NCBI RefSeq assembly: GCF_001426685.1
Contig: NZ_LMFB01000039.1
Location: 1 to 64,000 of the forward strand
DNA length: 64,000 nt
Origin: Rhizobium sp. Root483D2
GTDB lineage: Bacteria > Pseudomonadota > Alphaproteobacteria > Rhizobiales > Rhizobiaceae
Direction of reading: 5' to 3'
The notes below the pieces were generated by a model. That model did no database searches and was not told where the DNA came from. It saw only the letters and a list, made by a program, of their open reading frames with translations. Position 1 is the stretch's first letter; each line of letters begins with the position of its first letter. Shown in pieces: positions 256 through 31,523 of this stretch. Position numbers and translations under genes: made by a program.

Positions 256-726
256 TCACAAAACGCCTGAATCGCCTAACGGAGACTCTGCGCTCGAAAT
301 TTGATCCAGATTTTTTATCAGACGGGTCAGTAGATCGACAAGTCGCGAAGCTTCTGCTTCCGTGAAACCGACCAATGCCTCGCGATTGCCATGGAACAAG
401 GCTGTCATCGCCTCGGGCATGCGTTGCTGTGCAGCCTTCGTGAGCACGATACGGCTGCTGCGACCGTCCGCCGGGTCGCGCGCCCGTTCGATCAAGCCGT
501 CCCTCTCCATGCGCGCGAGCATTTGCGCCATCGGCGGTTGTTCGACCTTGGCGAAGCGGGCGAGGTCCCGCTGCGTGCTTGCTTTTCCATCTCGCAGTGC
601 GACCAATACAGGCAACTGGCCAACACCGAAGCCGAGAGGTTTAAGGCGTGCCTCGCTTAGGCGGGTAAATCCCCGCGCTGCGAGACTGATGAGATGCCCC
701 GGCGTCGCAAGCACATCTTCGTCCAT
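256..726 (-). CDS. MarR family transcriptional regulator
   Basis: This 156-residue protein has the MarR winged-helix layout. An N-terminal dimerisation helix is followed by the helix-turn-helix around residues 50-75 (QRDLARFAKVEQPPMAQMLARME) and the wing motif RDPADGRSSRIVLT. MarR proteins are usually dimeric repressors released by phenolic ligands or oxidants. The gene starts with ATG and is divergent from the SnoaL-like gene at 853, with a palindromic 127-bp spacer between them. It probably represses itself and that neighbour; the ligand cannot be deduced. Confidence 0.9.
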   Translation of the reverse strand: MDEDVLATPGHLISLAARGFTRLSEARLKPLGFGVGQLPVLVALRDGKASTQRDLARFAKVEQPPMAQMLARMERDGLIERARDPADGRSSRIVLTKAAQQRMPEAMTALFHGNREALVGFTEAEASRLVDLLTRLIKNLDQISSAESPLGDSGVL

Positions 727-763
727 TCAGTTCACCCCTATTGGCCTGCACTTGACTTGAAAT

Positions 764-780
764 TACATATGTACGTATAC
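764..780. promoter_or_regulatory. candidate MarR operator in divergent spacer
   Basis: The perfect 10-bp palindrome TACATATGTA (764-773) runs into a second short palindrome, GTATAC, at 775-780. The site lies between the MarR gene at 726 and the divergent gene at 853, where an autoregulatory operator is expected. Binding is inferred from position and symmetry only. Confidence 0.4.
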
Positions 781-852
781 ATCTACGAGCGGCATTATCA
801 ATCTCGATCCGGTGCCGCCCAACTCGTCTTTCAACCGCCACCGAGAAACAAT

Positions 853-1230
853 ATGCCGAACAATAACTTAGAAATGAACAAGCGTATCTATCAGAGCTTC
901 AACGCCAGAGACATCGACGGGGTACTTAGCGTTCTTTCCGAGGATGTTGCCTGGGCCAACGGCATGGATGGTGGCCACGTTCATGGTCGTGAGGCCGTGC
1001 GCGACTATTGGACACGTCAGTGGGCTGTCGTCAATCCGCACGTTGTGCCGGTGGCATTTGACGATAGCGAGGATGGAGTTCTGGCTGTCGAGGTGATCCA
1101 GTCTGTGTTCGACCTGAACGGTCAGCCCCTGGAGGGACAAACCCATGGTCTGAAGGACAAGACCGTGACGCACATCTTCCGGACGGAAGGCGAAAAGATC
1201 GTTCGCTTCGATATTCAGGATGCCCTTTAG
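853..1230 (+). CDS. SnoaL-like / nuclear transport factor 2 fold protein
   Basis: The protein has about 125 residues. Its opening MNKRIYQSFNARDIDGVLSVLSEDVAW is typical of the SnoaL/NTF2-like superfamily, in which a conical alpha+beta barrel binds small molecules in isomerase, hydrolase or unknown roles. The start at 853 follows a weak GAGAA; an internal ATG at 874 is the alternative. A longer in-frame extension to 694 overlaps the divergent MarR gene and is unlikely. The pairing suggests a target of the neighbouring MarR protein. The substrate is unknown. Confidence 0.8.
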   Translation: MPNNNLEMNKRIYQSFNARDIDGVLSVLSEDVAWANGMDGGHVHGREAVRDYWTRQWAVVNPHVVPVAFDDSEDGVLAVEVIQSVFDLNGQPLEGQTHGLKDKTVTHIFRTEGEKIVRFDIQDAL

Positions 1231-1324: not shown

Positions 1325-2230
1325 TCATTGTGTAAGGCGCCTCCGGAGATCGTCAAGCAACCAGCTTCCCGCCCGTCCCAAGGCGCGATTGCGCATGTGT
1401 GCCGCATAGATTGGCAGCGTATCCGTGGGCGATGGGCCGTCTCCGGAAAGGTCCAGTTCTTTCAGGCGTCCTGCGGCAATGTGTTGCTCGACGAGGTATG
1501 GCGGCATCTTGCACCAACCGAACCCTGCAAGCAGAAAGTCCAGGCGGCGCGCGATATCGACAAACCTCCACACTCGACTGCTAATGACCCCATAATTGGG
1601 ACCATCGGTGTCTAAGGCGTCGGCCAACACAAGTTGAATGTGCGCATCGAGGTCCTCGCGGGTCAGCGGGCGAGGAAGACACGCCAGCGGGTGCGCCGCC
1701 GCGGCGACGGGGATCAGCGTCCGATCCATGAGAGGGTATGCCGTCAGGTCATCCGGGACCGACGGCAGCAGCAGACAGAATGCCAGAGACGCTGACCCTG
1801 TCCGCAGCCGACGCTCCGCCCCTCCCAACCCTTCGGTGTAGAACGAGACCGGCAAGTTGGGAAACGCGTCCCTGACCGCGCGCATGCTGTCGATCAACGG
1901 TTCGGTCGGAACCAGGGGATCGATAGCGAGAGTGAGCGATGCCTCCTGCCCTTGCCTAGTTCCAGCGGCGATGGCTTCGAAGCGTTCTGTGCTTGCCAGG
2001 ATGGCACGTGCCTGCTCGACAAGCACGCGGCCGACCGCCGTCAAAGTGGGCCGCTGACGGCTGCGATCGAAGAGTTTGATACCCTGGTTTTCTTCCAGCG
2101 CCTTGACCGATTGACTTATGGCCGATTGAACCCGGCCGAGTGTCCGCCCGGCCGCTGAAAACCCGCCTTCGTCGCTCACTGTTACCAAAATCCGCAGCTG
2201 ATCCAGTGTCAGGCTCTCAATCACGCCCAT
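1325..2230 (-). CDS. LysR family transcriptional regulator
   Basis: At 301 residues this is a normal-length LysR protein. The N-terminal helix-turn-helix (LDQLRILVTVSDEGGFSAA, then LGRVQSAISQSVKALEE) precedes a periplasmic-binding-like effector domain. It is divergent from the azoreductase gene at 2357, and the spacer holds a perfect inverted repeat of the LysR-box type. By the usual LysR pattern it would activate that gene in response to a small molecule, perhaps a quinone or aromatic compound; the effector is inferred. Confidence 0.93.
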   Translation of the reverse strand: MGVIESLTLDQLRILVTVSDEGGFSAAGRTLGRVQSAISQSVKALEENQGIKLFDRSRQRPTLTAVGRVLVEQARAILASTERFEAIAAGTRQGQEASLTLAIDPLVPTEPLIDSMRAVRDAFPNLPVSFYTEGLGGAERRLRTGSASLAFCLLLPSVPDDLTAYPLMDRTLIPVAAAAHPLACLPRPLTREDLDAHIQLVLADALDTDGPNYGVISSRVWRFVDIARRLDFLLAGFGWCKMPPYLVEQHIAAGRLKELDLSGDGPSPTDTLPIYAAHMRNRALGRAGSWLLDDLRRRLTQ

Positions 2231-2260
2231 CTCCGATTATGATTGCTTCGATCACTATTT

Positions 2261-2277
2261 AATCAGTTCTCCTGATT
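2261..2277. promoter_or_regulatory. candidate LysR box (inverted repeat)
   Basis: AATCAG and CTGATT form a perfect 6-bp inverted repeat around TTCTC, and the symmetric T-N11-A core of LysR sites fits inside it. It sits between lysR (starts at 2230, leftward) and the azoreductase gene (starts at 2357, rightward), the classic location of a LysR activation site. Confidence 0.5.
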
Positions 2278-2356
2278 GAAGTCATCCCGTAAATGTTTGC
2301 CAAGCGCGCCATTGAAGTGCGCCCAGCCATCGGGACATATCATCAAGGAGTAGCCC

Positions 2357-2977
2357 ATGCCCACTTTGCTCGTCGTAGAATCCAGTCCCCGTGGAAACCA
2401 TTCGATGTCCCGCGGACTGACCGCAATGTTCGTCGAGCAATGGTTGGCGAAAAATCCCGGCGGCACAGTGGTCGAGCGCGACCTGATGGAGAGCAATTTG
2501 CCTTTCGTCACCATGCCATGGCTTGGCGCATATTTTACTCCCGTAGATCAGCACTCGCCGAAAATGAGGGAGATTCTGCGTCTTTCGGACGAACTCGTGA
2601 GCGAAATTTTAAATGCCGATCACATCGTTATCGGGACCCCGGTCTACAACTACAACGTCCCGGCGGTTCTAAAAGCGTATATCGATCACATCGTCCGCAA
2701 AGGAAAGACGCTCGGCTTTGCTGGCGAAGGACTTGTCCATGGCAAGGCCTGTACCATCGTGTTGGCATCGGGCGGTGTCTATACGGAGGGCTCACCCATC
2801 CGCGACCGCGACATCGCGACAAAATACCTGAAGCTCATCCTCAAGGTGATCGGCATCGAGGACGTCACCGTTGTTGCAGGTGGAAACGCCAAGTCGGTCG
2901 ATATGGGGCAAAAATCCCGAAGCGCGTTCTTGGAAACGTTTGCGCCTCAGATCGAAGCGGCCGCAGCCCTGGCCTGA
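2357..2977 (+). CDS. azoR: FMN-dependent NADH-azoreductase
   Basis: This 206-residue flavodoxin-fold oxidoreductase matches AzoR in length and landmarks. The FMN-phosphate loop [11 protein letters not shown] is near residue 10. The segment [26 protein letters not shown] lies near residue 95, and ASGGVY near residue 140. AzoR enzymes are cytosolic homodimers that reduce quinones and azo compounds by two electrons from NADH, which protects against thiol-reactive quinones. The ATG at 2357 follows AAGGAG. It is divergent from the LysR gene, which probably controls it. Confidence 0.9.
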
Positions 2978-3242: not shown

Positions 3243-4160
3243 TCAATGGACGTTGAAGCGCGGTACGGTGAGCAGCAAAACGCCAATAGTCGTGAGCAGA
3301 ATTCCATAGGCCAGGAAAGCCAACGGGCTGCCGGAGGGAATTCCTTGAAGGATCAAGCTGTCGTTGCCTCCAGGGACCAATGCGCTTCCGGCACCCATTA
3401 ACATCCCTCCCACAAACCGGTCCAACACGGCGCCGAGTTTAGGCCGTGCTAGTCGAAACCGTCCCCGCGCCACACCGGTTGCGATGCTGCCAGAAACAAG
3501 GCCAACGAGGCCTAGCCCAGTCAACCAGTCCGACGTCCCGATGTATCTCAATGCCAGCATCCATGGCCAGGGCTGGTGCAGCGTACCAACGAATGCGCCG
3601 ATGATCCCTATGACCGCCATCAGAATGGAAAGCTGCATGACGATGCCTATGGGCCGTCGCCATAGGAGAAACCGCAATGCTATGAGAAGCGGCAGACCGA
3701 CGGCGACAATCAGCACTGCATTTTCCGGAACCGGGCTCTTTTCTGGAAAAGTAGCGCGACCTTGCCCGAGCGCATCGAGAATGCGAAAAGAGAGGTATGC
3801 CCCGGCTCCTGTCAGTAGAAACTCGAGCCGACCTTCGCCCAGGCGGGCAATTGAGCCAAAGGCGCAGCCGCCGTTCATCGTCGCGCCGGCGCCAAAAAGA
3901 GCAGCGCCAAAACACAACCATCCCACGGGCTCCCATTGAGGTACTGCCATCTCTGGTGTCAATAGCCACGCGACCAACAACGCCCAGAGACCGCATTCGA
4001 GAAATCCCAAGAGTCCGTCAGCTCGATGTTCGCGGAGCAAATCAGACATCGCTCGAACGGCACAGGTCGTGCCGTGCTGAATAGCCACGCCTAACGCGAA
4101 CGCTGCCGCGAACAGAAGTACCGCGAGTGCTGGAATGGGAAGTCCGTGAAGAACGTTCAT
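3243..4160 (-). CDS. YeeE/YedE family (thiosulfate/sulfur transport) membrane protein
   Basis: The protein has about 305 residues and many hydrophobic segments. Two cysteine-containing motifs are diagnostic of the YeeE/YedE (DUF395) family: QHGTTCAVRA near residue 30 and GGCAFGSIARLGEG near residue 100. Characterised members import thiosulfate or move sulfane sulfur through the inner membrane by relay over such cysteines. The ATG shares one base with the stop codon of the upstream OsmC-hydrolase gene (TGATG), so translation is probably coupled. The pair suggests handling of reactive sulfur or oxidants. Confidence 0.88.
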   Translation of the reverse strand: MNVLHGLPIPALAVLLFAAAFALGVAIQHGTTCAVRAMSDLLREHRADGLLGFLECGLWALLVAWLLTPEMAVPQWEPVGWLCFGAALFGAGATMNGGCAFGSIARLGEGRLEFLLTGAGAYLSFRILDALGQGRATFPEKSPVPENAVLIVAVGLPLLIALRFLLWRRPIGIVMQLSILMAVIGIIGAFVGTLHQPWPWMLALRYIGTSDWLTGLGLVGLVSGSIATGVARGRFRLARPKLGAVLDRFVGGMLMGAGSALVPGGNDSLILQGIPSGSPLAFLAYGILLTTIGVLLLTVPRFNVH

Positions 4161-5383
4161 CACTGATCCATGATGTGTGTGACGATGACCGAGGATGCCT
4201 CAAGTGTCCTGTGAACTGGACAGCGGTCGGCGATGCGAAGCAAATCGGCGGAAGTCCTGTCGTCGACACCGCCGCGGATGCGAATGCGGCGTTCAAAACG
4301 ATCGATTTTGGGTCCTGCCGTGGTCTTTTCAATACATTCCAAGCAGTCGGATGCGTGGATTTTCGTATGATCGACTTCGACCGAGATCTGATCAAGCTTC
4401 ATTTTTTCTCTCTCCGCGTACATTCGCAACGTCATCGAAGTGCATGTACCAAGCGCGATCGCGAGAAAATCGTAAGGGGTCGGCCCAGTATCCGTACCAC
4501 CGGCACCGCTAGGCTCGTCGGCCATCAGCAGATGGCCATGAGCATCCACTCTCTGCTGGTATCGACCATGCCCGGTCTCGGTGACCAGCACCGGACCGGA
4601 ATGACGCGTGACTGGCTCTTTTGTTACACCGATGTAACGCGATGACCATCCCGCGATCACACTGGCGGCATACTCGGCATCCTGGGCGCGTGTCAGAAGA
4701 TGGTCCGCTCCGTCGAGGGAGACGAAGCTTTTGGGGTGTTTTGCTGCCGCGAAAATCAATGCGGCATTTTCAATTCCGACGGTGTCGTCCAGCGGTGCAT
4801 GCAAGATAAGAAGCGGCTTGCGCAGAGTTGCAATCCGCGCCGACAAATTGGCCGTCCTCGCATCCTCTATAAACTGCCTCTCAATCGTGAATTCGCGTCC
4901 ATGCAATGAAACCGTCGCCTCGCCCTCTCCCTCAATTTCGGCCAGGTCGGATCCAAAATTGTGCAGGACATGAGCGACGTCTGCCGGAGCACCAATGGTG
5001 ACTACAGCCTCGATGCCGGGGATAGAAGAGGCCGCTGCCAACACTGCTGCCCCTCCAAGCGAGTGGCCGATGAGGAGGCGGGGTGCTTCGCGGATATCGG
5101 CCAGATGGGTTGCTGCCCGCTTAAGGTCCTCGATATTGGATGAGAAGTTCGTGGACGCGAATTCTCCATCCGAGCCGCCCAAACCCGTAAAATCGAACCG
5201 CATGAGAGCAATCCCATGCCGTACAAGCCCGGCGGATATCCGGCGCACGGCCATCAGATCCTTCGAGCAGGTAAAGCAATGCGCGAATAGCGCATAGCCG
5301 CGGATGTCACCGTCTGGCAAGTCGAGCCGGGCGGAAAGGATGCCGCCCGCGTGGCCCGTGAATTCCAGTTTCTCGGTTTTCAT
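4160..5383 (-). CDS. bifunctional alpha/beta hydrolase - OsmC family protein
   Basis: This 407-residue protein fuses two domains. Residues 1-250 are an alpha/beta hydrolase with nucleophile elbow GHSLGGAA and acid/histidine region DGADHLL. Residues 270-405 are an OsmC/Ohr-like domain carrying the two expected cysteines, in GTCTSMTLRMYAEREK and RCPVHRTL. OsmC proteins are thiol peroxidases that reduce organic hydroperoxides. This fusion is a recurring architecture in proteobacteria. The ATG follows AAGGAT. The yeeE-type gene overlaps its stop codon, and the DUF417 gene lies upstream on the same strand. Confidence 0.9.
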   Translation of the reverse strand: MKTEKLEFTGHAGGILSARLDLPDGDIRGYALFAHCFTCSKDLMAVRRISAGLVRHGIALMRFDFTGLGGSDGEFASTNFSSNIEDLKRAATHLADIREAPRLLIGHSLGGAAVLAAASSIPGIEAVVTIGAPADVAHVLHNFGSDLAEIEGEGEATVSLHGREFTIERQFIEDARTANLSARIATLRKPLLILHAPLDDTVGIENAALIFAAAKHPKSFVSLDGADHLLTRAQDAEYAASVIAGWSSRYIGVTKEPVTRHSGPVLVTETGHGRYQQRVDAHGHLLMADEPSGAGGTDTGPTPYDFLAIALGTCTSMTLRMYAEREKMKLDQISVEVDHTKIHASDCLECIEKTTAGPKIDRFERRIRIRGGVDDRTSADLLRIADRCPVHRTLEASSVIVTHIMDQ

Positions 5384-5602
5384 TGTGGTTATCCTTAGAT
5401 AAGTCTGGCTATCCGGGGCATGGGTTTGTCCAGCCCCGTGTGGCGTTCAGTGCGATCGAAAAGGACAAAGCCTCCGATCTAATCTTCCCCGTCTGTCGGG
5501 AAAAACGAGTTCGTCATAGCGTGCGAAGTTTTTTGCCGGGAAGGTTCGAATCGCCGCTTTGCGACGCTGGTCATGAAACCTGTCCTTGATGGCGCCGGCC
5601 GA

Positions 5603-6124
5603 TCAGGCCCGGGAAATCTGGGCCTTGGCACGTGTGAGGCTTTCGCCGAAAATGACGATGCTCACGCCAAGAAGCGACACATCTTTGAGCAGGAACTGGC
5701 CAACAGGATTGAGCCAGGGGAAGCCACCAATTTCGGCGTAAAAGATTGGTAGCGCGAGCATCACGGAAACCGTGGTGAGAAACGTGAGCGACCCGATCGC
5801 GCCACCAAGTATCCCAGCGCGTGCCGACCAGGGCGATGCGATCAGGAGGATGGCGGTAAAGATCTCCGCAGTCCCCAAGAGTGCCGTGGCGCCCACTTCT
5901 CCGAAAGCGGGATAGAGCCATGACAGCCATGGGGTATTCGTAATCAGAGGCTTGAGCGCATCGACTTCGACTTGGGTAAATTTAAGAAGGCCGATCAACA
6001 GAAGCGGCAAGACCACCCCTGCGAGCGCGATACCGCGGCCGACCTTCGTTATCGTGGCGGCGGGTGCAATCCGATCCAGGCCAGTGATAGCGCGATCGGC
6101 GACTGATGTGATGTTCTGTGTCAT
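5603..6124 (-). CDS. DUF417 (YkgB/RclC-like) inner-membrane protein, copy 1
   Basis: The protein has 173 residues and four predicted membrane segments. The family signature GVVLPLLLIGLLKFTQVEVDALKPLI is near residue 40. The E. coli member RclC (YkgB) belongs to the reactive-chlorine resistance system, though its chemistry is unknown. The start at 6124 is chosen because AAAAAGGAGAG precedes it; the open frame extends upstream to 6157 through operator DNA. It is a close paralogue of the gene at 9733 and, like it, is divergent from a MarR gene with a cysteine-rich tail. Confidence 0.87.
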   Translation of the reverse strand: MTQNITSVADRAITGLDRIAPAATITKVGRGIALAGVVLPLLLIGLLKFTQVEVDALKPLITNTPWLSWLYPAFGEVGATALLGTAEIFTAILLIASPWSARAGILGGAIGSLTFLTTVSVMLALPIFYAEIGGFPWLNPVGQFLLKDVSLLGVSIVIFGESLTRAKAQISRA

Positions 6125-6147
6125 TTCGCTCTCCTTTTTGCGATTTG

Positions 6148-6162
6148 TATGCACCAAGCATA
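6148..6162. promoter_or_regulatory. 15-bp palindromic operator, module 1 site near DUF417
   Basis: TATGC and GCATA arms are separated by ACCAA. This is one of two such boxes in the 85-bp spacer between the DUF417 and MarR genes. The same box recurs in the mirror-image module at 9.6 kb. It is probably bound by the adjacent MarR protein. Confidence 0.65.
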
Positions 6163-6182
6163 TATTAATTTCACTTGATGTC

Positions 6183-6197
6183 TATGCGTGACGCATA
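6183..6197. promoter_or_regulatory. 15-bp palindromic operator, module 1 site near marR
   Basis: TATGC and GCATA arms are separated by GTGAC, 35 bp centre to centre from the other box and just ahead of the MarR start at 6210. The flank CTTGATGTC is shared with the equivalent site at 9640-9654, read on the opposite strand. This supports common descent of the two modules. Confidence 0.68.
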
Positions 6198-6209
6198 TAT
6201 ATTTTCGCA

Positions 6210-6722
6210 ATGGACGAGAAAAAAACTGAAAACGTAATCGGTGCGATGGCTTTAGGCCTCGCAGACGCAGTAATAAGAGAGACGGAAAACCAAGCTCCGG
6301 AGAAAGGGCAGGCAGCTGCGGCGATAGCGCTATTGAGGCACGAGCCTGCAATGCCCATCGAGCGGATGCGCCGCGCTTTGGGGCTTTCGCACTCCGCAAC
6401 GGTTCGCCTTATTGATCGGCTTGTGACCGATGATTTGGTCGTACGACGACCGGGTGTAAGCGACCGGCGAGCCGTCGCTCTGCATTTAACGGAAGCGGGT
6501 GAAACCAGGTGCAATGCAATCCTGTCGTCTCGTTTCGAGCGTATAGCCAAAGCTCTGGAGAGCTTCGATCCTGTTGAAAAAGAGACGTTTCGATTGCTTA
6601 CAGAAAAATTTCTGTCCAACTTCGTAGAAGATCTCGATCACGCTTATTCAGTTTGTCGACTATGCGACCTCAGTGCTTGTCCAGACTGCCCAGTCCAATG
6701 CACTCTCCAAGCTAAAGTGTGA
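6210..6722 (+). CDS. MarR family regulator with C-terminal cysteine cluster, copy 1
   Basis: This 170-residue MarR protein has its helix-turn-helix at about residues 50-80 (MRRALGLSHSATVRLIDRLV) and the wing around SDRRAVALHLTEAG. The tail carries cysteines at 149, 152, 157, 160 and 164. C152, C157 and C160 (CDxxxCxDCPV) are also present at the same numbers in the paralogue at 9082. Such a cluster could bind metal or act as a redox switch; this is inference. It is divergent from the RclC-like gene and two palindromes lie between them, so it probably represses both. Confidence 0.9.
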   Translation: MDEKKTENVIGAMALGLADAVIRETENQAPEKGQAAAAIALLRHEPAMPIERMRRALGLSHSATVRLIDRLVTDDLVVRRPGVSDRRAVALHLTEAGETRCNAILSSRFERIAKALESFDPVEKETFRLLTEKFLSNFVEDLDHAYSVCRLCDLSACPDCPVQCTLQAKV

Positions 6723-6889
6723 CCTGCGCGTCTAAGTTAAGCAATCGGCTTGATTAAACTACTTATTCCCTTGGTATTTGTGAAGGCGGGAACAGAGCGC
6801 GCAGTATGCGGATGCAGCATTAAAGACTGCAAAATTCGCATGGGAAACAATGGAAATCATCGCGTAGTCTGAAGCCAGCGGAGGCATAA

Positions 6890-7870
6890 ATGCTTGATAT
6901 CAGATGGCTAGTAGACTTGGCGGCAATAGCGGAATACCGAAATCTTACCAAGGCAGCCGAGAAACGAAATGTTACCCAGTCTGGGCTAAGCCGCAGGCTT
7001 CAATCTCTGGAACGATGGGCAGGTGCGTCGCTTATCGATAGAAGCAAAAACCCTATCTGTCTTACGAAGGCCGGCGAAGAGCTTTTGGCGACATCAGGCG
7101 AGGTCGTTGCGCGGCTGAACGAAACACGCAGGGCGATACGCGACGATGCTGACGAAAGGATGACAGCCGTTCGCTTCGCCGCGCCGCATGTCCTTTCCGT
7201 TACATTTTTTCCGAAGTGGCTTCCGGTTCTCCAACGTCAGGTCGGGTCACTTCCCCTCAACGTCCGATCCGATAGCCTCGGTTGCTGCTGCGAGGCTCTG
7301 GAGCATGGCGATGTTGATTTTGTTGTGTGCTTCGTAGACGCTCGAACTGCCCGGAACGGGGCCTACGGCTCCCTCCCTCTATCTAAGTGCGACTCGATAC
7401 TCGTAGGAAGAGATAAACTCGTTCCCTTATCAGTGCCGTCGAGGGCAGGGGAACCACGCCATCGCCTGGATGGCGGTAGCGAAACCGTTGTTCCCTATCT
7501 AGGTTATGAGACGGCGTGCGCTCTGGGCTGGGCTATCGACGATGCGATTGGACGGGACGGGTCTCTCTCCCGGTTGCGTCGCATCGTGCAAAATGCGCAG
7601 GCTGACGGTTTGCGTTGCATGACCCTTCTTGGGATAGGGGCCGCATGGCTTCCTTTGAGCATGACCCATCAAGACATCCTGAACGGCAAGCTCGTCCGGG
7701 CTGGACCCGAACACCTGGACGTTGATCTCGAGGTGAGGGTTTTCCGTGCCAACAGGGATCTGGCCAAGCGCTCGGAAGCGGTCTGGCGCGAAATGTCGGC
7801 GCAATCAATGACGAGGCGCCGCAATACCTCAGAGCCGGCAAAGATGCTGGCTGTTGGTCACATTGTTTGA
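6890..7870 (+). CDS. LysR family transcriptional regulator
   Basis: At 326 residues this is a LysR protein with the N-terminal helix-turn-helix (LTKAAEKRNVTQSGLSRRLQSLERWAG) and an effector-binding domain with several unusual cysteines (GCCCEALEHGD near residue 128). The ATG follows GGAGG. It converges on the next LysR gene and has no obvious divergent target, so its regulon cannot be guessed. It lies between the two mirrored MarR/DUF417 modules. Confidence 0.9.
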   Translation: MLDIRWLVDLAAIAEYRNLTKAAEKRNVTQSGLSRRLQSLERWAGASLIDRSKNPICLTKAGEELLATSGEVVARLNETRRAIRDDADERMTAVRFAAPHVLSVTFFPKWLPVLQRQVGSLPLNVRSDSLGCCCEALEHGDVDFVVCFVDARTARNGAYGSLPLSKCDSILVGRDKLVPLSVPSRAGEPRHRLDGGSETVVPYLGYETACALGWAIDDAIGRDGSLSRLRRIVQNAQADGLRCMTLLGIGAAWLPLSMTHQDILNGKLVRAGPEHLDVDLEVRVFRANRDLAKRSEAVWREMSAQSMTRRRNTSEPAKMLAVGHIV

Positions 7871-7949
7871 AGCCATTTGGCAGACAAGTGACCGACTTTC
7901 GCTACATCAATTTCAGCAAATTGCATGGCATAAAAAACCGACGGGCTGC

Positions 7950-8873
7950 CTATTGAGAAGTGCTGTTCTTGGCGACCTGCAACACCATTTTCCGAAGCCA
8001 CATATGGGCGGGATCGGTCCTCATTCTAGTGTGCCAGAATAGGTTCATCCCAAACACGGACACAGGAAGTGGAGGAGGGAAAAGATCGAGCGTGTCCTCA
8101 AATCTTTTCAGGAAACGCCTCGGCAAGGTGCATATACAATCCGTGTTCGACAGAACCAGCGGCGCGAGGGCATAGCTCTGAATGGATACCGATACGCGAC
8201 GCTCAAGTCCCATTTCAGCGAGAGCATCATCGATCATTCCAGAGAAATGTCCGCCGGTGGTCGAAATTAACAAGTGCTGGGCGTCGCAGAACTCCTCGAT
8301 GGTCAACGGTTTCGTCCCACGGGGATGGTTTCGGCGCTGAGCAGTCAGGAATTCCTCTTGGAAGAGTGTTTGCCCGATAAGTTCAGCGGAACCGTCTTCC
8401 GCCGCGCCTACGAACAAGTCCACATCGCCTTGCTCTAGGTGCTCTGCGATCAGCGCCTTGTTGGGAAGTGTAAACGCAATCTTGGCCAACGGCGCCTGGG
8501 CTTGAAATAATGGGATCAGGTCTGGAGCGAGGATGGCGGCGGGATTGTCGGTCGCCGCGATACGAAAAACCCTCCTCGTAGTCATGGGATCGAACAAGTG
8601 AGCTGTGTTGACGAAGTCGTTGAAGCGCTCAAGTAAGCGAGTCAACTCAGGCTGCAGAGAAGAAGCGTGTGGCGTCGCAACCATGCCTCGTCCAGATGCG
8701 GCGGGGACAAATAACGGATCGTTGAGTAATGTACGCATCCGGGTCAATCGCGCGGAGAGTGCAGACTGTGTGATGTTAAGGCGATCGGCGGCATGGGTCA
8801 CGTTTGGATCCTTTAAAAGGGCATCAAGCGTAACCAAAAGGCCTACATCAAAGTCCGATATTCTTTGAGCCAA
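7950..8873 (-). CDS. LysR family transcriptional regulator (NodD-like subgroup)
   Basis: The NodD/LinR-like subgroup is indicated by the opening DFDVGLLVTLDALLKDPNVTHAADRLNITQSALSARLTRMR, by DPLF, and by the C-terminal RTDPAHMWLR. No ATG starts this frame. A TTG at 8873, six bases after AAGGAAG, gives a 307-residue protein of normal length; a further TTG at 8957 lacks a good ribosome site. The gene converges with the LysR gene at 6890. The target is unknown. Confidence 0.85.
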   Translation of the reverse strand: MAQRISDFDVGLLVTLDALLKDPNVTHAADRLNITQSALSARLTRMRTLLNDPLFVPAASGRGMVATPHASSLQPELTRLLERFNDFVNTAHLFDPMTTRRVFRIAATDNPAAILAPDLIPLFQAQAPLAKIAFTLPNKALIAEHLEQGDVDLFVGAAEDGSAELIGQTLFQEEFLTAQRRNHPRGTKPLTIEEFCDAQHLLISTTGGHFSGMIDDALAEMGLERRVSVSIQSYALAPLVLSNTDCICTLPRRFLKRFEDTLDLFPPPLPVSVFGMNLFWHTRMRTDPAHMWLRKMVLQVAKNSTSQ

Positions 8874-9081
8874 AATTACTTCCTTTGCATTGTCCGCCCC
8901 GTACGATCGACCCGGCAGGGCATTTAACAGTGAGCGAAGCTTTATCTGGGCTACCAACTCTTTGCGTAAATAAGTCCCAGAAAGTGCGCTCGATTTTCAT
9001 TGTTTAGGCCAGCGACGCAGAATTCATTGGTGACTTGGACCGCATCGACGCACCCTGTGACATCAAGTCGCCGAATTTGAG

Positions 9082-9627
9082 TCATCGTTCGGCCGCTGTG
9101 TTGGCGGTCGGCGTTCCTTCCTCTAAGAACAATGCTTGGTTGACCGGGCAATCGGTGCACGAGTTATGATCGCATAGCCGATATATAGAACAGGCGTCTT
9201 CTATACCATTTATGAATTGAACAAGCATTTTCTCGGTGAGTTCACCGAACGCAACACGTTCAAATGGCTCGAGATGCTGCAAAGCCGCCGCCATCCTCCG
9301 TCGCCTCGCGCAGAGGATCGCCGCGGAGCTTTTCCTGCCCACATCTGTCAGATGCACCTCGACCGCACGCCGATCATTTTTACTCGGCTGTCTCCGAACC
9401 AGTCCCTCGGCGGATAAGCGATCGACGAGACGGACGGCCCCAGGATGCGACAAGCCAAGGATGCGGCGTAACTTCTCAATGGACATCCCAGGCGCATCTC
9501 CCAACAACGCCAACGCGGAAACCGCAGGCCCCGGCTCCGGGGCATGGCTTTCCATATCCCGAACCATGGAGTCCGACAGTGCAAGCAGGAATGCACCCAG
9601 GACGTTCTCGATTTTACCCTCGTTCAT
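9082..9627 (-). CDS. MarR family regulator with C-terminal cysteine cluster, copy 2
   Basis: This 181-residue paralogue of the MarR protein at 6210 shares its opening (VLGAFLLALSDSMV) and recognition helix region (RRILGLSHPGAVRLVDRL). Cysteines 152, 157 and 160 lie in CDHNSCTDCPV at identical numbering; position 149 is tyrosine instead of cysteine. A 17-residue tail follows the cluster. The gene is divergent from the second DUF417 gene at 9733, with two copies of the palindromic box between them. The whole arrangement is the mirror image of module 1. Confidence 0.9.
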   Translation of the reverse strand: MNEGKIENVLGAFLLALSDSMVRDMESHAPEPGPAVSALALLGDAPGMSIEKLRRILGLSHPGAVRLVDRLSAEGLVRRQPSKNDRRAVEVHLTDVGRKSSAAILCARRRRMAAALQHLEPFERVAFGELTEKMLVQFINGIEDACSIYRLCDHNSCTDCPVNQALFLEEGTPTANTAAER

Positions 9628-9639
9628 TTCCCAAACATA

Positions 9640-9654
9640 TATGCACGGTGCATA
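9640..9654. promoter_or_regulatory. 15-bp palindromic operator, module 2 site near marR
   Basis: TATGC and GCATA arms flank ACGGT, 13 bp ahead of the leftward MarR start at 9627. Read on the minus strand, the flank CTTGATGTC matches the site at 6183-6197. It is probably the operator of the adjacent MarR protein. Confidence 0.68.
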
Positions 9655-9678
9655 GACATCAAGCTACTTGTATGTTTA

Positions 9679-9693
9679 TATGTGTAGCGCATA
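9679..9693. promoter_or_regulatory. 15-bp palindromic operator, module 2 site near DUF417
   Basis: TATGT and GCATA arms flank GTAGC, with one base off perfect symmetry. The site is 39 bp centre to centre from the box at 9640 and upstream of the DUF417 start at 9733. Two boxes per spacer is the same layout as in module 1. Confidence 0.6.
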
Positions 9694-9732
9694 CAAATTT
9701 GCGAGATTTTCCATGAGAAAGGATCGGTTCAG

Positions 9733-10242
9733 ATGTCTAACATCAGTACCCACACCGCTGCCAAAGCTTACAAGAATGCTCGGCCAGCAGATCGCCTGAC
9801 ACTCAACGTTGGCCGCGTTACTTGCCTGCTCGGCGTCGTCTTGCCGCTTCTCCTAATCGGCGTTCTGAAGTTCACCCAAGTTGAAATTGACGCGCTCAAG
9901 CCGCTGATCAACGGCACGCCGTGGTTAGCATGGCTTTACTCGGTATTCGGATTCGCTGGCACCAGCTATTTGCTCGGTACAGTGGAGCTTTTCACCGCCT
10001 TAATGTTCATCGCATCGTTCTGGTCGGTCCGCGCCGGACTTGCTGCCGGGTTCCTCGGAGCGCTGACGTTTGCGACCACGGCCTCGACGTTATTCGCCCT
10101 ACCGATTTGGGAAGCAGCCTCGGGTGGTTTTCCGTACCTCAATTTCGTTGGATCATTCTTGATCAAAGACATTGCCCTCCTTGGAATCAGTCTCGCTGTG
10201 CTGGGGGAAAGCTTGATCAAGACCCGGGCGGGGGCGAATTGA
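9733..10242 (+). CDS. DUF417 (YkgB/RclC-like) inner-membrane protein, copy 2
   Basis: This 169-residue four-helix membrane protein closely resembles copy 1. It shares GVVLPLLLIGVLKFTQVEIDALKPLI near residue 36, GGFPYLNFVG and LIKDIALLGISL. Family knowledge points to protection from hypochlorous acid in E. coli (RclC), but no enzymatic role is established. AGAAAGGATC precedes the ATG. It is divergent from MarR copy 2 and probably derepressed when that protein senses its signal. Confidence 0.87.
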   Translation: MSNISTHTAAKAYKNARPADRLTLNVGRVTCLLGVVLPLLLIGVLKFTQVEIDALKPLINGTPWLAWLYSVFGFAGTSYLLGTVELFTALMFIASFWSVRAGLAAGFLGALTFATTASTLFALPIWEAASGGFPYLNFVGSFLIKDIALLGISLAVLGESLIKTRAGAN

Positions 10243-10623
10243 GCGCCATCCTGATAGAAGTGGCAAAATATGCAGCCGCCATTACCGATGCACACCGAAA
10301 TGAATACGTTGGCTCGTGCGCTAGTTTCAGACGAAGTATTGGGACAAAGGCCAGCGACATCCGAGTTAGCACTCTCTACCACATTGCCACATGACGGCTT
10401 TAAATGCGGAAACCGCAAGAGCCGATGCGTGAACCGCATTGGATGTCGTTAACTAGGGAAGGCTAGATGCCCGAGTAGATTGAAGATGAGTGGCGCCAGG
10501 TTCCGCCGACTGTGCGCTGCTGATCCCAGACAATCAGCCACAAAGAAGTCCAGGTACGCTGATTTCGAGTTGCACGCCCCGTAATCGCTGACAGCGGTCG
10601 AGGCAAACCTTTGAGGGCAAAAC
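10243..10623. other. 381-bp intergenic region, no gene recognised
   Basis: Short open frames here have no family resemblance and no convincing ribosome sites. The only structure noted is two related inverted repeats, TGCGG-AAA-CCGCA (10405-10417) and ATGCG-TGAAC-CGCAT (10425-10439). They could be an operator for an unidentified regulator or chance. Confidence 0.3.
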
Positions 10624-11322
10624 ATGCACTACGCTGAATATAAGCACACCGATCCACATCTCGTCCATGCCCTGGTGGATGTATTTTCCTTCGCGGCCAT
10701 CTCGGTCAATGGATCAAAAGGACCGCGCATTGCGCATGCACCCCTTACTTTCAGAAACGGTCAATTTCCCGCAGGCGCCCTCGAATTTCATTTGGCGAAA
10801 GCCAACCCGATCGCGCGGGACATGAAAATCGGCGTACCTGTTACTATTCTGGTTCAAGGTCCTGGCGCCGCGATTTCGCCGAGTTGGTTTACGTCCAGCT
10901 TTCCGCAACCAGACTCCGATCGAAGCAGGACTGCACCGACGTATAACTACATCAGTTTGATTATGACCGGCAGGCTGGAGTTCTTGGATGACCTCGCGCT
11001 ACAGACTCAGATCAGGGACCTGGTGTTAGCCAGTGAACCAGAGGGTGGCTGGCGAACCGAGGAGTTGGCTCCCGACCTCTGGCAGGGCTGGCGCAGGCTC
11101 ATCCAGGGATATCGGCTCGAGATCGAAAGTTTTGATCTCACTGCAAAGCTGAGCCCAGGCGAAATACCGGACGACAAAGTTGGCGTCATTGCAGGCTTGC
11201 TGGAACGCGGTGTTCTCGCCGATGAGGGCATGGCATATCTTCTAAGAGGGTATGAAGGCACCTCCCAGTCACTTGTCTCCCTTGTCCGCGCGTTGAAACA
11301 TGGCGTTGGCACTTCGAGCTAA
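10624..11322 (+). CDS. FMN-binding negative transcriptional regulator family (PaiB-like)
   Basis: This 232-residue protein fits the PaiB/FMN-binding split-barrel family in length and motifs. AHAPLTFRNG is near residue 38, the conserved SPSWFTSSFP near residue 86, and TYNYISLIMTGRLEF near residue 104. B. subtilis PaiB is described as a regulator of sporulation and degradative enzymes, but most relatives are better described as flavin-binding proteins of unknown function. The ATG at 10624 has a weak upstream site (TTTGAGGGC). The gene stands alone, so no pathway can be assigned. Confidence 0.82.
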   Translation: MHYAEYKHTDPHLVHALVDVFSFAAISVNGSKGPRIAHAPLTFRNGQFPAGALEFHLAKANPIARDMKIGVPVTILVQGPGAAISPSWFTSSFPQPDSDRSRTAPTYNYISLIMTGRLEFLDDLALQTQIRDLVLASEPEGGWRTEELAPDLWQGWRRLIQGYRLEIESFDLTAKLSPGEIPDDKVGVIAGLLERGVLADEGMAYLLRGYEGTSQSLVSLVRALKHGVGTSS

Positions 11323-11595: not shown

Positions 11596-12501
11596 CTATG
11601 ACACTACCAGGTCTTTGGCGAGTTCGCTGACGACACCCCTGAGCCATCGATGTGCTGGATCGTGGCGATAGCGCACGTGCCAAGCCATCTCGACCGGGAA
11701 CGTTCCGAGGTCGACAGGGGCTTCAACGACCTTCAGCCGAGGATCGCGCTCGAGGCTGCGACAGATCAGCCGAGGAAGGGTTGCGCAGTAGTCAGTGACC
11801 GCGACCATCTCGGGAACTGACAGGAAATGCGTGACGGAGACGGCAACGTCGCGCTTGAGGTTCTGTTGCCCTAAGGCCTGGAACACGCCCGCGCGAATTC
11901 GACCTGGCGGTAGGACGTTGACGTGTTTCAGGCTCTCGTAAAGGTCTCGCGTCAGGCTGGCGCCGACGTCCGGATGGTCGCGACGGACGATACAGGCAAG
12001 GCCGTCGTCCATCAGATGCTGGACGACCAGGTTGTCAGGCGGATCGATGACCCTGCCCAGCACTATTGCGGTCGTCCCTGAGATCACGCCAGTCTCCGCC
12101 AGATCGTTGCCGAATGGGGTCATGCGAAGTTTGATCCCTGGAGCTTGCTCTCGCAGCCTTGCCACCAGCGCTGGCATCAACACCAGTTCGACGTAGCTGT
12201 TCGGAGCGATCAGGAACAGCCGCTCCGCACTTGCCGGATCGAAATCCTGCTGGTGGACGACGAGATCATCAAGCTGCGCCAATGCGGCCTCGATCGTCGG
12301 CGCGATCTCCTCGGCAAGCTGTGTCGGTCTGATGCCATAGCGCTCCCGGATGAACAGCGGATCTTTCAGCATGTCGCGAAGCCGATTGAGCGAATTCGAC
12401 AGCGCAGGCTGCGTAATGCCCAAGCGGCTGGCGGCGCGGGTGACGCTCCGCTCCTCCATGAGAGCCAGAAAGACTGGCAGAAGATTCAGATCGTATTTCA
12501 T
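11596..12501 (-). CDS. LysR family transcriptional regulator (NodD-like subgroup)
   Basis: This 301-residue protein has the NodD/LinR-type opening (MKYDLNLLPVFLALMEERSVTRAASRLGITQPALSNSLNRLR) followed by DPLFIRERYG and the C-terminal RHDPAHRWLR. It is divergent from the DJ-1/PfpI gene at 12649, which is its most likely target. Effector unknown. About 270 bp downstream (11323-11595) hold no recognisable gene. Confidence 0.92.
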   Translation of the reverse strand: MKYDLNLLPVFLALMEERSVTRAASRLGITQPALSNSLNRLRDMLKDPLFIRERYGIRPTQLAEEIAPTIEAALAQLDDLVVHQQDFDPASAERLFLIAPNSYVELVLMPALVARLREQAPGIKLRMTPFGNDLAETGVISGTTAIVLGRVIDPPDNLVVQHLMDDGLACIVRRDHPDVGASLTRDLYESLKHVNVLPPGRIRAGVFQALGQQNLKRDVAVSVTHFLSVPEMVAVTDYCATLPRLICRSLERDPRLKVVEAPVDLGTFPVEMAWHVRYRHDPAHRWLRGVVSELAKDLVVS

Positions 12502-12648
12502 CCAGATGTAATTGCACGTGAATATCTAAAATCCAACAAGTAAATTTCTCAAATATCTCTCCAGCTGACATGATCACTTCATCGAAAAGCCAGCAGCGCC
12601 GATCGACAATCCAGGCCGGTCCGGCCGCGACCAACAAAGGATAAGACG

Positions 12649-13347
12649 ATGAAAATTCTCATGGTGCTGACTTCGCACGACACGCTTGGCGACACCGGCC
12701 GCAAGACCGGGTTCTGGTTGGAGGAGCTGGCAGCTCCCTATTACGTCTTCAAGGACGCCGGCGCCGAGATCACGCTTGCTTCGCCCAAGGGCGGCCAGCC
12801 GCCGCTCGACCCGAAGAGCGACGAACCGATGTTCCAGACCGAACTCACGGCTCGTTTCAAGGCAGACGCCGACGCCAACGCCCAGCTCTCCCAGACAGTA
12901 CGCCTCGACAGCGTTGACCAGAAGGATTTCGACACGGTGTTTTATCCCGGCGGTCACGGCCCGATGTGGGATCTCGCTGAAGACAAGAATTCCATTGCGT
13001 TGATCGAATCCTTCATCGCCGCCGGCAAGACCATCGCGTTGGTCTGCCACGCTCCGGGTGTACTGCGCCATGTCAAGAATGCTGATGGCTCGCCGTTTGC
13101 TCAGGGACGCTACCTCACAGGTTTCACCAATACCGAAGAAGACGGCGTTGGCCTGACCAAGGTGGTCCCTTTCCTGGTCGAGGACGTGCTCATCGCCCAA
13201 GGAGCCGTGTTCTCCAAGGTGAAGGACTGGGGCGTCCACACGGTCGTCGACGGCCAACTCATCACCGGGCAGAACCCGGGTTCCTCCGGCGAGGCCGCTG
13301 AAGCTCTGCTCACCGCCTTGAGCCAGGCACGGGTCCGGGCAGCCTGA
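12649..13347 (+). CDS. type 1 glutamine amidotransferase-like (DJ-1/PfpI, Hsp31-like) protein
   Basis: This 232-residue DJ-1/PfpI superfamily protein resembles the Hsp31/YajL-type branch. TGFWLEELAAPYYVFKDAGAEITLASPKGG is near residue 20, the acidic-residue loop FYPGGHGPMWD near residue 100, and the nucleophile-elbow cysteine is in VCHAPG near residue 132. Members include glyoxalase III-type enzymes, deglycase-like proteins and holdases that defend against reactive carbonyls. A good AAGGATAAG site precedes the ATG. It is divergent from the LysR gene, whose control is likely. Confidence 0.9.
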   Translation: MKILMVLTSHDTLGDTGRKTGFWLEELAAPYYVFKDAGAEITLASPKGGQPPLDPKSDEPMFQTELTARFKADADANAQLSQTVRLDSVDQKDFDTVFYPGGHGPMWDLAEDKNSIALIESFIAAGKTIALVCHAPGVLRHVKNADGSPFAQGRYLTGFTNTEEDGVGLTKVVPFLVEDVLIAQGAVFSKVKDWGVHTVVDGQLITGQNPGSSGEAAEALLTALSQARVRAA

Positions 13348-29666: not shown

Positions 29667-31523
29667 GTGCGGCACTGGCAAGGTCGTCCTGGAAATGTAG
29701 AGCGAGTGCTAAAGTTGGACGGGGCAGAAAAAACGCGTTGGGGGCAAGACGAAATCTCTCGCATGATCGAGAGCGGCGGCTGGGATATGAGCGTGCTCGG
29801 TCCGCCGTCGTCATGGCCGGACTGTCTCCGGAGAGCAGTCGATATCATGTTGCCGTCGAAGGCGCAGATCGTCCTTTTCTGGGGGCCTGCCTTCGCGGCA
29901 CTTTACAATGAGGCTTATGCGCCGAGCATTGGACTGCGGCACCCCAAGGCCTTCGGTCGACCGGCACAGGAGAATTGGAGCGAACTCTGGGACGACCTTG
30001 AGCCTCTCCTGCGTCAGGTGCTTGACACCGGCGAGACGGTAGCCGCCAAGGATCGTCCCTTCTACATCGAGCGCCACGGGCATCCCGAGACGGTGTATTT
30101 CGACATCTCCTATTCACCGATCCTTGATGAGGATCGAAATGTGCGGGGCGTGTTTTGCATCGTCAGCGAAACCACCGATCGCATCCGCGTCGAACACGCG
30201 TTAGGGCAAAGCGAGGAACGGCTGCGGGCTGTGGTATCGCAGTCAGCAGCCGGGATCGGCCAGGGCAGTCTCGACGGCGAGATCCTTCACGTCAACAGCC
30301 GGTTTTGCGAAATGCTTGGCTATGACGAACATGAGCTGGTCGGCAAAAACATCCGCGATATCACACACCCCGAGGATCTTACTGAGCAGGGCAGGCTATA
30401 CAGGCTTTTGGTGGAAACAGGCAAAAGCTTCGACATCGAGAAACGCTACCTCCGAAAGGACGGCAATGTCCTATGGGTCAACAACACGGTGTCGCCACTA
30501 CGAGACGAGGCCGGTAAAATCCTTCAGGTGGCCGTCGTCTCCATCGATATTAGCGAGAGAAAGAAGAACCAGGAAGTCGAACGCCTGTTGGCGTCCATCA
30601 TTGCCTCGTCCAACGATGCCATTATCGGTATCGATCTGGCGATGACCATCACATCCTGGAATACAGCGGCTGAACGCCTGTACGGCTTCAAAGCTGAAGA
30701 GATTGTCGGAAGGTCGGTCATGGGTCTTGTCCCCGAGGATCGGCTTGAGGAGGAGCCGGCTCTTCTTAGCCAGATCAAAGCGGGATTTCGGGTTGAACCC
30801 TACGAGACGAAGCGGCGGCATAAAAACGGTCGTCTGGTCGACGTGCTTCTCAGTGTCTCGCCGATTTTTGACAGCGCCGGCCAGATCGTTGGCGCTTCGA
30901 AGATCGCCCATGATATTTCGGCGAGAAAGGAGGCCGAACGTCTCCAGTCGGTCCTGATCGGTGAGTTGCACCACCGCGTCAAGAATGTCTTCGCAACAGT
31001 CATCGCCATCGCCAGACAGACGTTTGGAAAAGACAACAGCGAAGGCGAGGCCGTCAGCGCATTCGAGGCACGCCTATCAGCCATGGCCCATGCCCACGAT
31101 CTTCTTGCTCAGGACGACTGGCAACGTGCGGAACTCACGGCGGTTGTCGAACAGGCCGTCGCCCCCTATCCCCCGGAGCGGTTCGAAATCATCGGTGTGC
31201 CGGTGCTGCTGCCGCAAAAGGCCGTCGCATCCTTGTCACTTGCACTTCACGAACTGGGCACAAACGCAGCAAAGTATGGGGCTCTTTCGGTTTCGGAAGG
31301 AAAGGTCGCGATCAGCTGGACCTACGATGACAAAACGGGAGCGCTCAACCTCCGCTGGCAAGAAAAAGATGGCCCGCCCGTGGTGCCTCCGACGCGGAAA
31401 GGGTTTGGTTCCCGACTTGTCGAACGCCTGTTGGCTGCAGAAATGCATGGGCGCTCGACGATCATCTATGATCCATCCGGCGTGATCTGTGACATCGAAG
31501 CGCAGCTGCATCCTCACGTTTGA
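29667..31523 (+). CDS. PAS-containing HWE-family histidine kinase
   Basis: The protein has 618 residues. An N-terminal sensor begins around GPPSSWPDCLRRAVDIML and contains WGPAFAALYNEAY. Two PAS domains follow at about 185-305 and 305-430, then the HWE kinase core. The phosphoacceptor is in ELHHRVKN (about residue 435), the N-box reads ALHELGTNAAKYGAL, and the W-x-E signature is in LRWQEKDGPPV. The start is uncertain: GTG at 29667 is used, with GTG at 29706 or ATG at 29764 possible. HWE kinases often feed the PhyR/EcfG general stress pathway. Confidence 0.9.
   Translation: MRHWQGRPGNVERVLKLDGAEKTRWGQDEISRMIESGGWDMSVLGPPSSWPDCLRRAVDIMLPSKAQIVLFWGPAFAALYNEAYAPSIGLRHPKAFGRPAQENWSELWDDLEPLLRQVLDTGETVAAKDRPFYIERHGHPETVYFDISYSPILDEDRNVRGVFCIVSETTDRIRVEHALGQSEERLRAVVSQSAAGIGQGSLDGEILHVNSRFCEMLGYDEHELVGKNIRDITHPEDLTEQGRLYRLLVETGKSFDIEKRYLRKDGNVLWVNNTVSPLRDEAGKILQVAVVSIDISERKKNQEVERLLASIIASSNDAIIGIDLAMTITSWNTAAERLYGFKAEEIVGRSVMGLVPEDRLEEEPALLSQIKAGFRVEPYETKRRHKNGRLVDVLLSVSPIFDSAGQIVGASKIAHDISARKEAERLQSVLIGELHHRVKNVFATVIAIARQTFGKDNSEGEAVSAFEARLSAMAHAHDLLAQDDWQRAELTAVVEQAVAPYPPERFEIIGVPVLLPQKAVASLSLALHELGTNAAKYGALSVSEGKVAISWTYDDKTGALNLRWQEKDGPPVVPPTRKGFGSRLVERLLAAEMHGRSTIIYDPSGVICDIEAQLHPHV

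Follow-up and report, generated by a model that had tools for sequence, protein, structure and literature searches.

What controls the DUF417 membrane proteins of Rhizobium sp. Root483D2, and in answer to which signal? In the first 64,000 nucleotides of contig NZ_LMFB01000039.1 (assembly GCF_001426685.1; this whole stretch is called the window below), two DUF417 genes each stand divergent from a gene for a MarR-family regulator with a cysteine cluster at its C terminus. A preliminary description had proposed that the MarR proteins bind a shared palindromic box, sense an oxidant or a metal through their cysteines and derepress the neighboring membrane protein. We conclude that the regulatory unit is real, that it exceeds the first claim in size and mobility, and that it probably represents a new regulator class for a known defense protein family.

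Open reading frames (ORFs) and a Pfam scan bore out both modules. In the first, DUF417-1 (5603..6124, minus strand; 173 amino acids, no cysteine; Pfam DUF417, 97.9 bits) is divergent from MarR1 (6210..6722, plus strand; 170 amino acids; MarR_2, 32.1 bits). In the second, MarR2 (9082..9627, minus strand; 181 amino acids; MarR_2, 50.7 bits) is divergent from DUF417-2 (9733..10242, plus strand; 169 amino acids; DUF417, 91.0 bits). All four proteins scored above the respective cut-offs, which are 27 bits for both DUF417 (PF04224) and MarR_2. The DUF417-1 start was taken at the ATG at 6124, in agreement with an annotated relative; the ORF tool begins at a TTG at 6157. The two DUF417 proteins are paralogues, as had been supposed, with 61% identity over 149 columns, and MarR1 and MarR2 share 49% identity over 166 columns.

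Each spacer contains two copies of the 15-bp palindrome TATGC-N5-GCATA, three of them exact and one, in module 2, with the single mismatch already described. Box 1 (TATGCACCAAGCATA, 6148..6162) lies next to DUF417-1 and box 2 (TATGCGTGACGCATA, 6183..6197) next to marR1; box 3 (TATGCACGGTGCATA, 9640..9654) is proximal to marR2, and the mismatched box 4 (TATGTGTAGCGCATA, 9679..9693) to DUF417-2. The window holds six sites with at most one mismatch, as opposed to a mean of 0.90 and a maximum of 3 in shuffled sequences; the two sites outside the modules are at 29916 and 34074. The 6.04-Mb genome contains five exact boxes, three of which are in these two spacers and the others on contigs C8 and C11, and no copy of a reversed control pattern. 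Since about 3.6 exact boxes per genome are expected from independent base frequencies, the total of five is ordinary and uninformative. What is telling is that three exact boxes fall inside 3.5 kb and that every one of them lies in a divergent promoter region.

The flank CTTGATGTC, previously noted as conserved at the marR-proximal boxes, is indeed present at both of them; rather than a mere flank, it is best read as the −35 hexamer of a marR promoter. Read toward marR, both boxes are embedded in TTGATG-TC-box-TAT(A/G)TT, so that the 17-bp spacer between the predicted −35 and −10 elements consists of two bases plus the 15-bp box. The promoter scan and a geometry script place the marR1 promoter (TTGATG-17-TATATT, filled by box 2) at 6175..6203 on the plus strand, and box 3 lies inside TTGATG-17-TATGTT on the minus strand. 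The interval between −35 and −10 is a usual site for a repressor. With its ATG only 6 nt past the −10 element, marR1 of module 1 is likely to have a transcript with little or no leader. The promoter scan was weak on its own, since it gave six sites in the region where shuffles averaged 2.6. But of 16 marR-side boxes at loci linked to DUF417, 13 have TTG exactly 8 bp ahead of them; these rows include Aeromonas and Sphingomonas plasmids as well as close relatives (the exceptions are L004 6544, L035 11218, and L070 3658). In loci without DUF417, TTG was found 10 bp before the box in five of six cases, which again gives a 17-bp spacer, here ending within the box.

Cysteines 152, 157, and 160 are present in both MarR proteins, as had been reported. 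The cluster itself stands, and its extent had to be corrected from three cysteines to a four-cysteine motif of the MarR subfamily. MarR1 has further cysteines at 101, 149, and 164, giving the tail C149-X2-C152-X4-C157-X2-C160-P, and MarR2 has them at 106 and 146, with a tyrosine at 149. Among 117 MarR proteins (MarR1, MarR2, and 115 profile-search hits), 113 carry the motif, as C-X2-C-X4-C-X2-C in 109 and as C-X2-C-X4-C-X4-C in 4; the remaining four are MarR2, two fragments, and one distant hit. Cys149 occupies 32 of 33 rows of the MarR alignment, MarR2 being the exception. The MarR2 copy on CP050515, a 1.05-Mb plasmid of R. leguminosarum bv. trifolii typed as conjugative, has cysteines at both 146 and 149. 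In a structural model of MarR1, the cluster sits beyond the MarR fold, in a loop that joins helices 142-148 and 161-169. A profile search against solved structures and a structure comparison matched the MarR part, many rows spanning residues 1-142; because the tail was barely covered, no new fold is claimed.

The arrangement of the tail appears consistent with cysteine-based sensing and derepression. Redox-responsive MarR proteins such as OhrR and E. coli MarR combine the MarR fold with derepression through cysteines. Unlike in these proteins, the cysteines here cluster C-terminally, after the fold. MarR2 scored 20.9 bits against the OhrR NCBIfam model, whose cut-off is 200, and for MarR1 no OhrR match was listed by NCBIfam at E values up to 0.001.

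The region from 3243 to 11322 reads YeeE/YedE (−), hydrolase-OsmC (−), DUF417-1 (−), MarR1 (+), LysR (+), LysR (−), MarR2 (−), DUF417-2 (+), and FMN_bind_2 (+). The alpha/beta hydrolase-OsmC fusion gene (4160..5383, minus strand; Pfam OsmC 63.0 and Hydrolase_4 54.4 bits) lies downstream of DUF417-1 on the same strand, across a gap of 219 bp, and its end is overlapped by the start of the gene for a YeeE/YedE sulfur-transport family protein (3243..4163, minus strand; Sulf_transp, 62.8 bits). Downstream of DUF417-2 is the FMN_bind_2 gene (10624..11322, plus strand; 92.2 bits). The same gene order is found on CP050515, whose copies of MarR1 and DUF417-1 are about 96% identical to those of the window, which suggests that the window is Rhizobium-like DNA, perhaps plasmid-borne.

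Other loci of this type vary in the second module. In the R. leguminosarum loci L003 and L035, both DUF417 genes are on one strand, the second of them beside FMN_bind_2; MarR2 was not detected in L003 and is reduced to a 30-amino-acid remnant in L035, and the second-module boxes are kept in both. In L004, the second box pair (6505 and 6544) lies at the 5' end of the gene for the FMN_bind_2 homologue, and a second DUF417 gene was not found within the stretch. Retention of boxes with the target gene after loss of the second MarR, together with the arms common to the four boxes, suggests that MarR1 may control both modules. The description of the modules as a duplication with inversion found no support: MarR2 groups with two other proteins (support 99/88 and 98/92) and not with MarR1. 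MarR2 is a long branch, a MarR1+MarR2 clade was marginally disfavored and not rejected (approximately unbiased test, P = 0.053), and in the DUF417 tree, where the modules are unpaired, the bootstrap had not settled and DUF417-2 sat in an unresolved fork. Duplication with inversion is neither shown nor rejected.

The combination recurs far outside Rhizobium. On the Aeromonas caviae plasmid pFBAOT6 (L034), genes for LysR, MarR, YeeE/YedE, DUF6314, DUF417, MarR, alcohol dehydrogenase, and MsrA are followed by hydrolase-OsmC, LysR, MsrB, MsrA, and glutathione S-transferase (GST) genes. Three exact and two one-mismatch boxes (at 2547, 4693, 5973, 9894, and 9934) stand before both MarR genes, before DUF417, and between OsmC-hydrolase and LysR; here the MarR starts, 2574 and 6001, were set by alignment instead of following the annotation. 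The second MarR has four cysteines (CRLCCYEGCTNCP), and the first keeps only CHLC. A third version of the island, on a Sphingomonas paucimobilis plasmid (L070), has five exact boxes. Two of them lie between OsmC-hydrolase and LysR, one lies between gap and rpiA, and YeeE/YedE and MarR-DUF417 are each preceded by one; MarRb has a one-mismatch box in front. No exact box appeared in 200 Markov shuffles of either island. The hydrolase-OsmC counterparts of both islands are preceded by boxes, and both islands contain msrA and msrB. The gap and rpiA genes, with the exact box between them, occupy 3831-5778 of L070; their box suggests that a spare oxidant-sensitive enzyme is under the same control.

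Compared with the Rhizobium locus, the pFBAOT6-type island has the same MarR tail, box, and DUF417, YeeE/YedE, hydrolase-OsmC, and LysR genes; it differs in also carrying msrA, msrB, alcohol dehydrogenase, and GST genes, and its DUF417 and MarR proteins are about 29% and 40% identical to those of the window. A megablast search with 9.65 kb of L034 found matches in 388 plasmid records. Of these, 111 carry 80% or more of the query at a single place, and many others match msrA/msrB only. Over all 388 records, Klebsiella (92), Citrobacter (82), and Enterobacter (50) led the tally. Two genomes from another family of the order (G001 and G152) contain a plasmid-type MarR, DUF417, and YeeE/YedE with boxes. 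The proposal of an operator common to the two modules is supported, since the box recurs at promoters of DUF417 and of this type of MarR in Rhizobium, in these two genomes, and on the Aeromonas and Sphingomonas plasmids.

What the DUF417 proteins do can be approached through their relatives. DUF417-1 is 36% identical to RcrB over 130 columns and 26% identical to RclC over 175 columns, and in a six-row alignment Gly45, Lys48, Glu53, Pro59, Glu87, and Lys147-Asp148 are invariant across the window proteins, RclC, and RcrB. To judge from their NCBIfam scores, which fall far short of the RclC cut-off, the window proteins are relatives of RclC, not RclC itself. According to the papers cited here and below, E. 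coli RclC is required for resistance to hypothiocyanous acid (HOSCN) (PMC12096828), and RcrB is the main defense of strain CFT073 against hypochlorous acid (HOCl), its gene being freed once molecules of the TetR repressor RcrR become linked by disulfides (PMC9600549). A 2026 review, citing a preprint, attributes to RcrB a glutathione-dependent detoxification of extracellular chlorine species (PMC13367049). The oxidant-defense theme of the preliminary description gained weight from these roles and from msrA/msrB and OsmC in the plasmid islands. By gene association, the theme of the islands (msrA/msrB, OsmC, a spare gap) is thiol and methionine oxidation.

Two known systems invite comparison. 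As in the rcrARB operon of uropathogenic E. coli, where HOCl inactivates RcrR by cysteine oxidation, a repressor gene adjoins the DUF417 gene. There, a TetR repressor with other cysteines shares one operon with its target (PMC9600549); here, MarR is encoded divergently, its C-terminal tail has the four-cysteine motif, and the spacer contains a 15-bp palindrome. No TetR-family repressor defines the window modules, whose regulator belongs to the MarR family. E. coli rclABC-rclR likewise places a DUF417 membrane protein under a chlorine-responsive regulator, which is the AraC activator RclR, whereas a MarR repressor is proposed here, and RclC is only 26% identical (PMC12096828, PMC7464077). RclA, RclB, and an AraC-type RclR were absent from the nine ORFs of 3243-11322 by Pfam and NCBIfam. 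The claim that a MarR-DUF417 pairing is undescribed held among the literature matches listed, a scope that leaves out preprints and most subscription papers; the same matches gave no description of this operator or this island, and no function for the pFBAOT6 island was seen in the literature found. One candidate precedent for MarR with DUF417, PMC13118837, was discarded, as its DUF417 hits are DUF4177. PMC2830190 deals with Ohr/OhrR.

The sequence itself establishes the genes, the boxes, the geometry of the marR promoters, the conservation of the four cysteines, and the repeated presence of MarR, box, and DUF417 in islands with oxidant-repair genes. From this we infer a scheme that covers binding, repression, co-transcription, signal, cysteine chemistry, and cross-control. 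A dimeric MarR would bind the palindrome that separates −35 from −10 in the marR promoter, as well as the second copy beside the divergent DUF417 start, so that both promoters would be blocked. An oxidant, most likely reactive chlorine (HOCl, chloramine, or HOSCN), would modify the C-terminal four-cysteine cluster by thiol oxidation or by loss of a bound metal or Fe-S center, and the repressor would release the DNA. DUF417 would then be expressed, probably along with the downstream OsmC-hydrolase, YeeE/YedE, and FMN-binding genes, and may remove or exclude the oxidant at the inner membrane, as in the report on its relative RcrB. MarR1 would probably cross-control module 2. We give about even chances to this reading, in which a thiol- or metal-switch MarR represses a reactive-chlorine defense set and each module forms a self-regulating switch.

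How general the association is was evaluated by profile surveys, whose tallies include the source genome and whose loci extend 1.5 kb on each side, so that farther partners were missed. The DUF417 profile matched in 21 of 397 genomes of the order, and outside the source genome a four-cysteine MarR accompanied 3 of 28 DUF417 loci (in two genomes). A closer DUF417 profile matched in 8 of 385 genomes of the class and 24 of 398 of the phylum; MarR was found at 2 of 33 of these loci, one in a genome already counted. The MarR profile matched in 16 of 385 class genomes and 8 of 398 phylum genomes, and of the 24 MarR loci outside the source genome, 2 adjoined DUF417 and 22 had none within the stretch. 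Near MarR, these 24 loci had exact boxes in 6 cases, a one-mismatch box in 2, two-mismatch sites only in 9, and none in 7. Shuffling yielded exact boxes at these loci in 0 of 300 trials each and one-mismatch boxes, where these were the best, in 4 of 300 each; the two-mismatch sites, several of them TGTGC-N5-GCACA or TATGA-N5-TCATA, were not individually beyond shuffles (18 to 37 of 300). Contrary to the outcome that would have refuted the preliminary description, the motif and box do co-occur with DUF417, but not exclusively, and most DUF417 loci examined have no such MarR. In addition, 15 of 112 MarR contigs were equal in size to contigs in the list of DUF417 hits, which showed 120 of 510, compared with 0 to 3 for shifted sizes, a pairing that, with several contigs short, is suggestive only. 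In one MarR/DUF417 pair, the locus tags N825_13800 and N825_13795 are neighbors.

A number of observations weigh against the chlorine-switch scheme. Sixteen of the 24 MarR loci have neither an exact nor a one-mismatch box near MarR, and at L064 a MarR is divergent from DUF417 with two-mismatch sites only. Stray one-mismatch sites occur in L070 (8276, in the OsmC gene), L003 (9540), and L033, the CP050515 locus (4010). The only exact box of genome G1021 precedes a DUF417 gene (L095) that directly follows a molybdopterin oxidoreductase gene (Pfam Oxidored_molyb; MsrP-like by eye), yet no four-cysteine MarR is present there; the reversed control pattern occurs four times in G1021, so this box is possibly due to chance. 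On the window itself, MarR2 has no first motif cysteine, the promoter scan recognized no clear sigma-70 promoter on the DUF417 side, and the scan of 19 ORFs showed no msr gene. The DUF417 proteins scored 62.3 and 52.5 bits against the RclC equivalog NF040476, as opposed to a cut-off of 275, and are just 26 to 36% identical to RclC and RcrB. Finally, the MarR tail and box also accompany DUF3237 and other genes without a known oxidant role. DUF3237 occurs with the same MarR subfamily at L040, L041, L044, L048, and L055, with paired exact boxes 43 to 45 bp apart in four of the five; a SnoaL gene intervenes in L041, and L055 has a glyoxalase-type gene. The signal of the MarR family may therefore be wider.

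These last loci fit an alternative in which the subfamily senses electrophiles or thiol-reactive organics (quinones, aldehydes, or isothiocyanates) and DUF417 is one of several targets. Besides the five DUF3237 loci, members adjoin glyoxalase-type, SnoaL, and alpha/beta hydrolase genes; the wider window has a flavodoxin-fold reductase gene and a DJ-1/PfpI gene, and the plasmid islands contribute GST genes and, in L034, an alcohol dehydrogenase. The msrA/msrB genes of the islands and the published DUF417 roles favor chlorine oxidants instead, and we regard electrophile sensing as unlikely, if worth keeping in view. The cysteine cluster could also be a zinc, iron, or copper site through which MarR answers metal level, with oxidant defense secondary. 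The four-cysteine spacing, with a last gap of two (109/117) or four (4/117) residues as in metal sites, and a ZIP-type transporter gene in the Sphingomonas island fit this idea; MarR2 lacks the first motif cysteine, the 19 window ORFs scanned include no metal-resistance gene, and we find it quite improbable. Reactive sulfur (persulfide, polysulfide, or sulfite) as the signal, with OsmC and YeeE/YedE as main effectors, is very improbable: YeeE/YedE does accompany the set in Rhizobium and both plasmid islands, and at L043 the MarR gene is met tail to tail by a gene of the metallo-beta-lactamase fold, whose resemblance to persulfide dioxygenase is by eye only, but methionine sulfoxide reductases and DUF417 better fit chlorine oxidants, and the annotation of the L034 and L070 stretches includes no gene for oxidizing sulfide or persulfide.

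Other regulators surround the modules. Between them lie a LysR gene at 6890..7870 on the plus strand and a second one at 7950..8957 on the minus strand (Pfam HTH_1 and LysR_substrate). The former is a possible second chlorine sensor with a putative HypT-like role: HypT is its best NCBIfam match, at 87.6 bits and below the cut-off of 301, and its alignment with E. coli HypT, 301 columns long, gives 24% identity. HypT is a hypochlorite-responsive regulator (PMC7464077). Two further LysR genes (window 1325-2977 and 11596-13347) are divergent from stress-type enzymes, namely the flavodoxin-fold reductase (2357-2977) and the DJ-1/PfpI protein (12649-13347). A third MarR gene (256-726), without the four-cysteine tail, is divergent from a SnoaL-like gene (window 256-1230). 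On CP050515, upstream of the modules (244-2786 of L033), cytochrome P460, cupin, sulfite-oxidase-like, and oxidoreductase genes are annotated; P460 is near the modules in L003 and L035 as well.

At its broadest, the proposal is that a MarR subfamily with a C-X2-C-X4-C-X2/4-C-P metal or Fe-S switch senses reactive chlorine and runs a mobile regulon through one operator between −35 and −10. The regulon would comprise DUF417, OsmC hydrolase, YeeE/YedE, MsrA/B, and a spare glyceraldehyde-3-phosphate dehydrogenase (GAPDH), on plasmids of Rhizobium, Sphingomonas, Aeromonas, and enterobacteria. We hold this tentatively, as a possibility that falls short of an even chance. In the literature found, control of DUF417 involves AraC and TetR regulators only, and MarR would be a third class if the proposal is true. 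The box would then serve as an address for the rest of the regulon, and the cysteine tail would be a sensor to study. The presence of the set on conjugative plasmids would, in turn, offer a way to recognize mobile gene sets for disinfectant tolerance.

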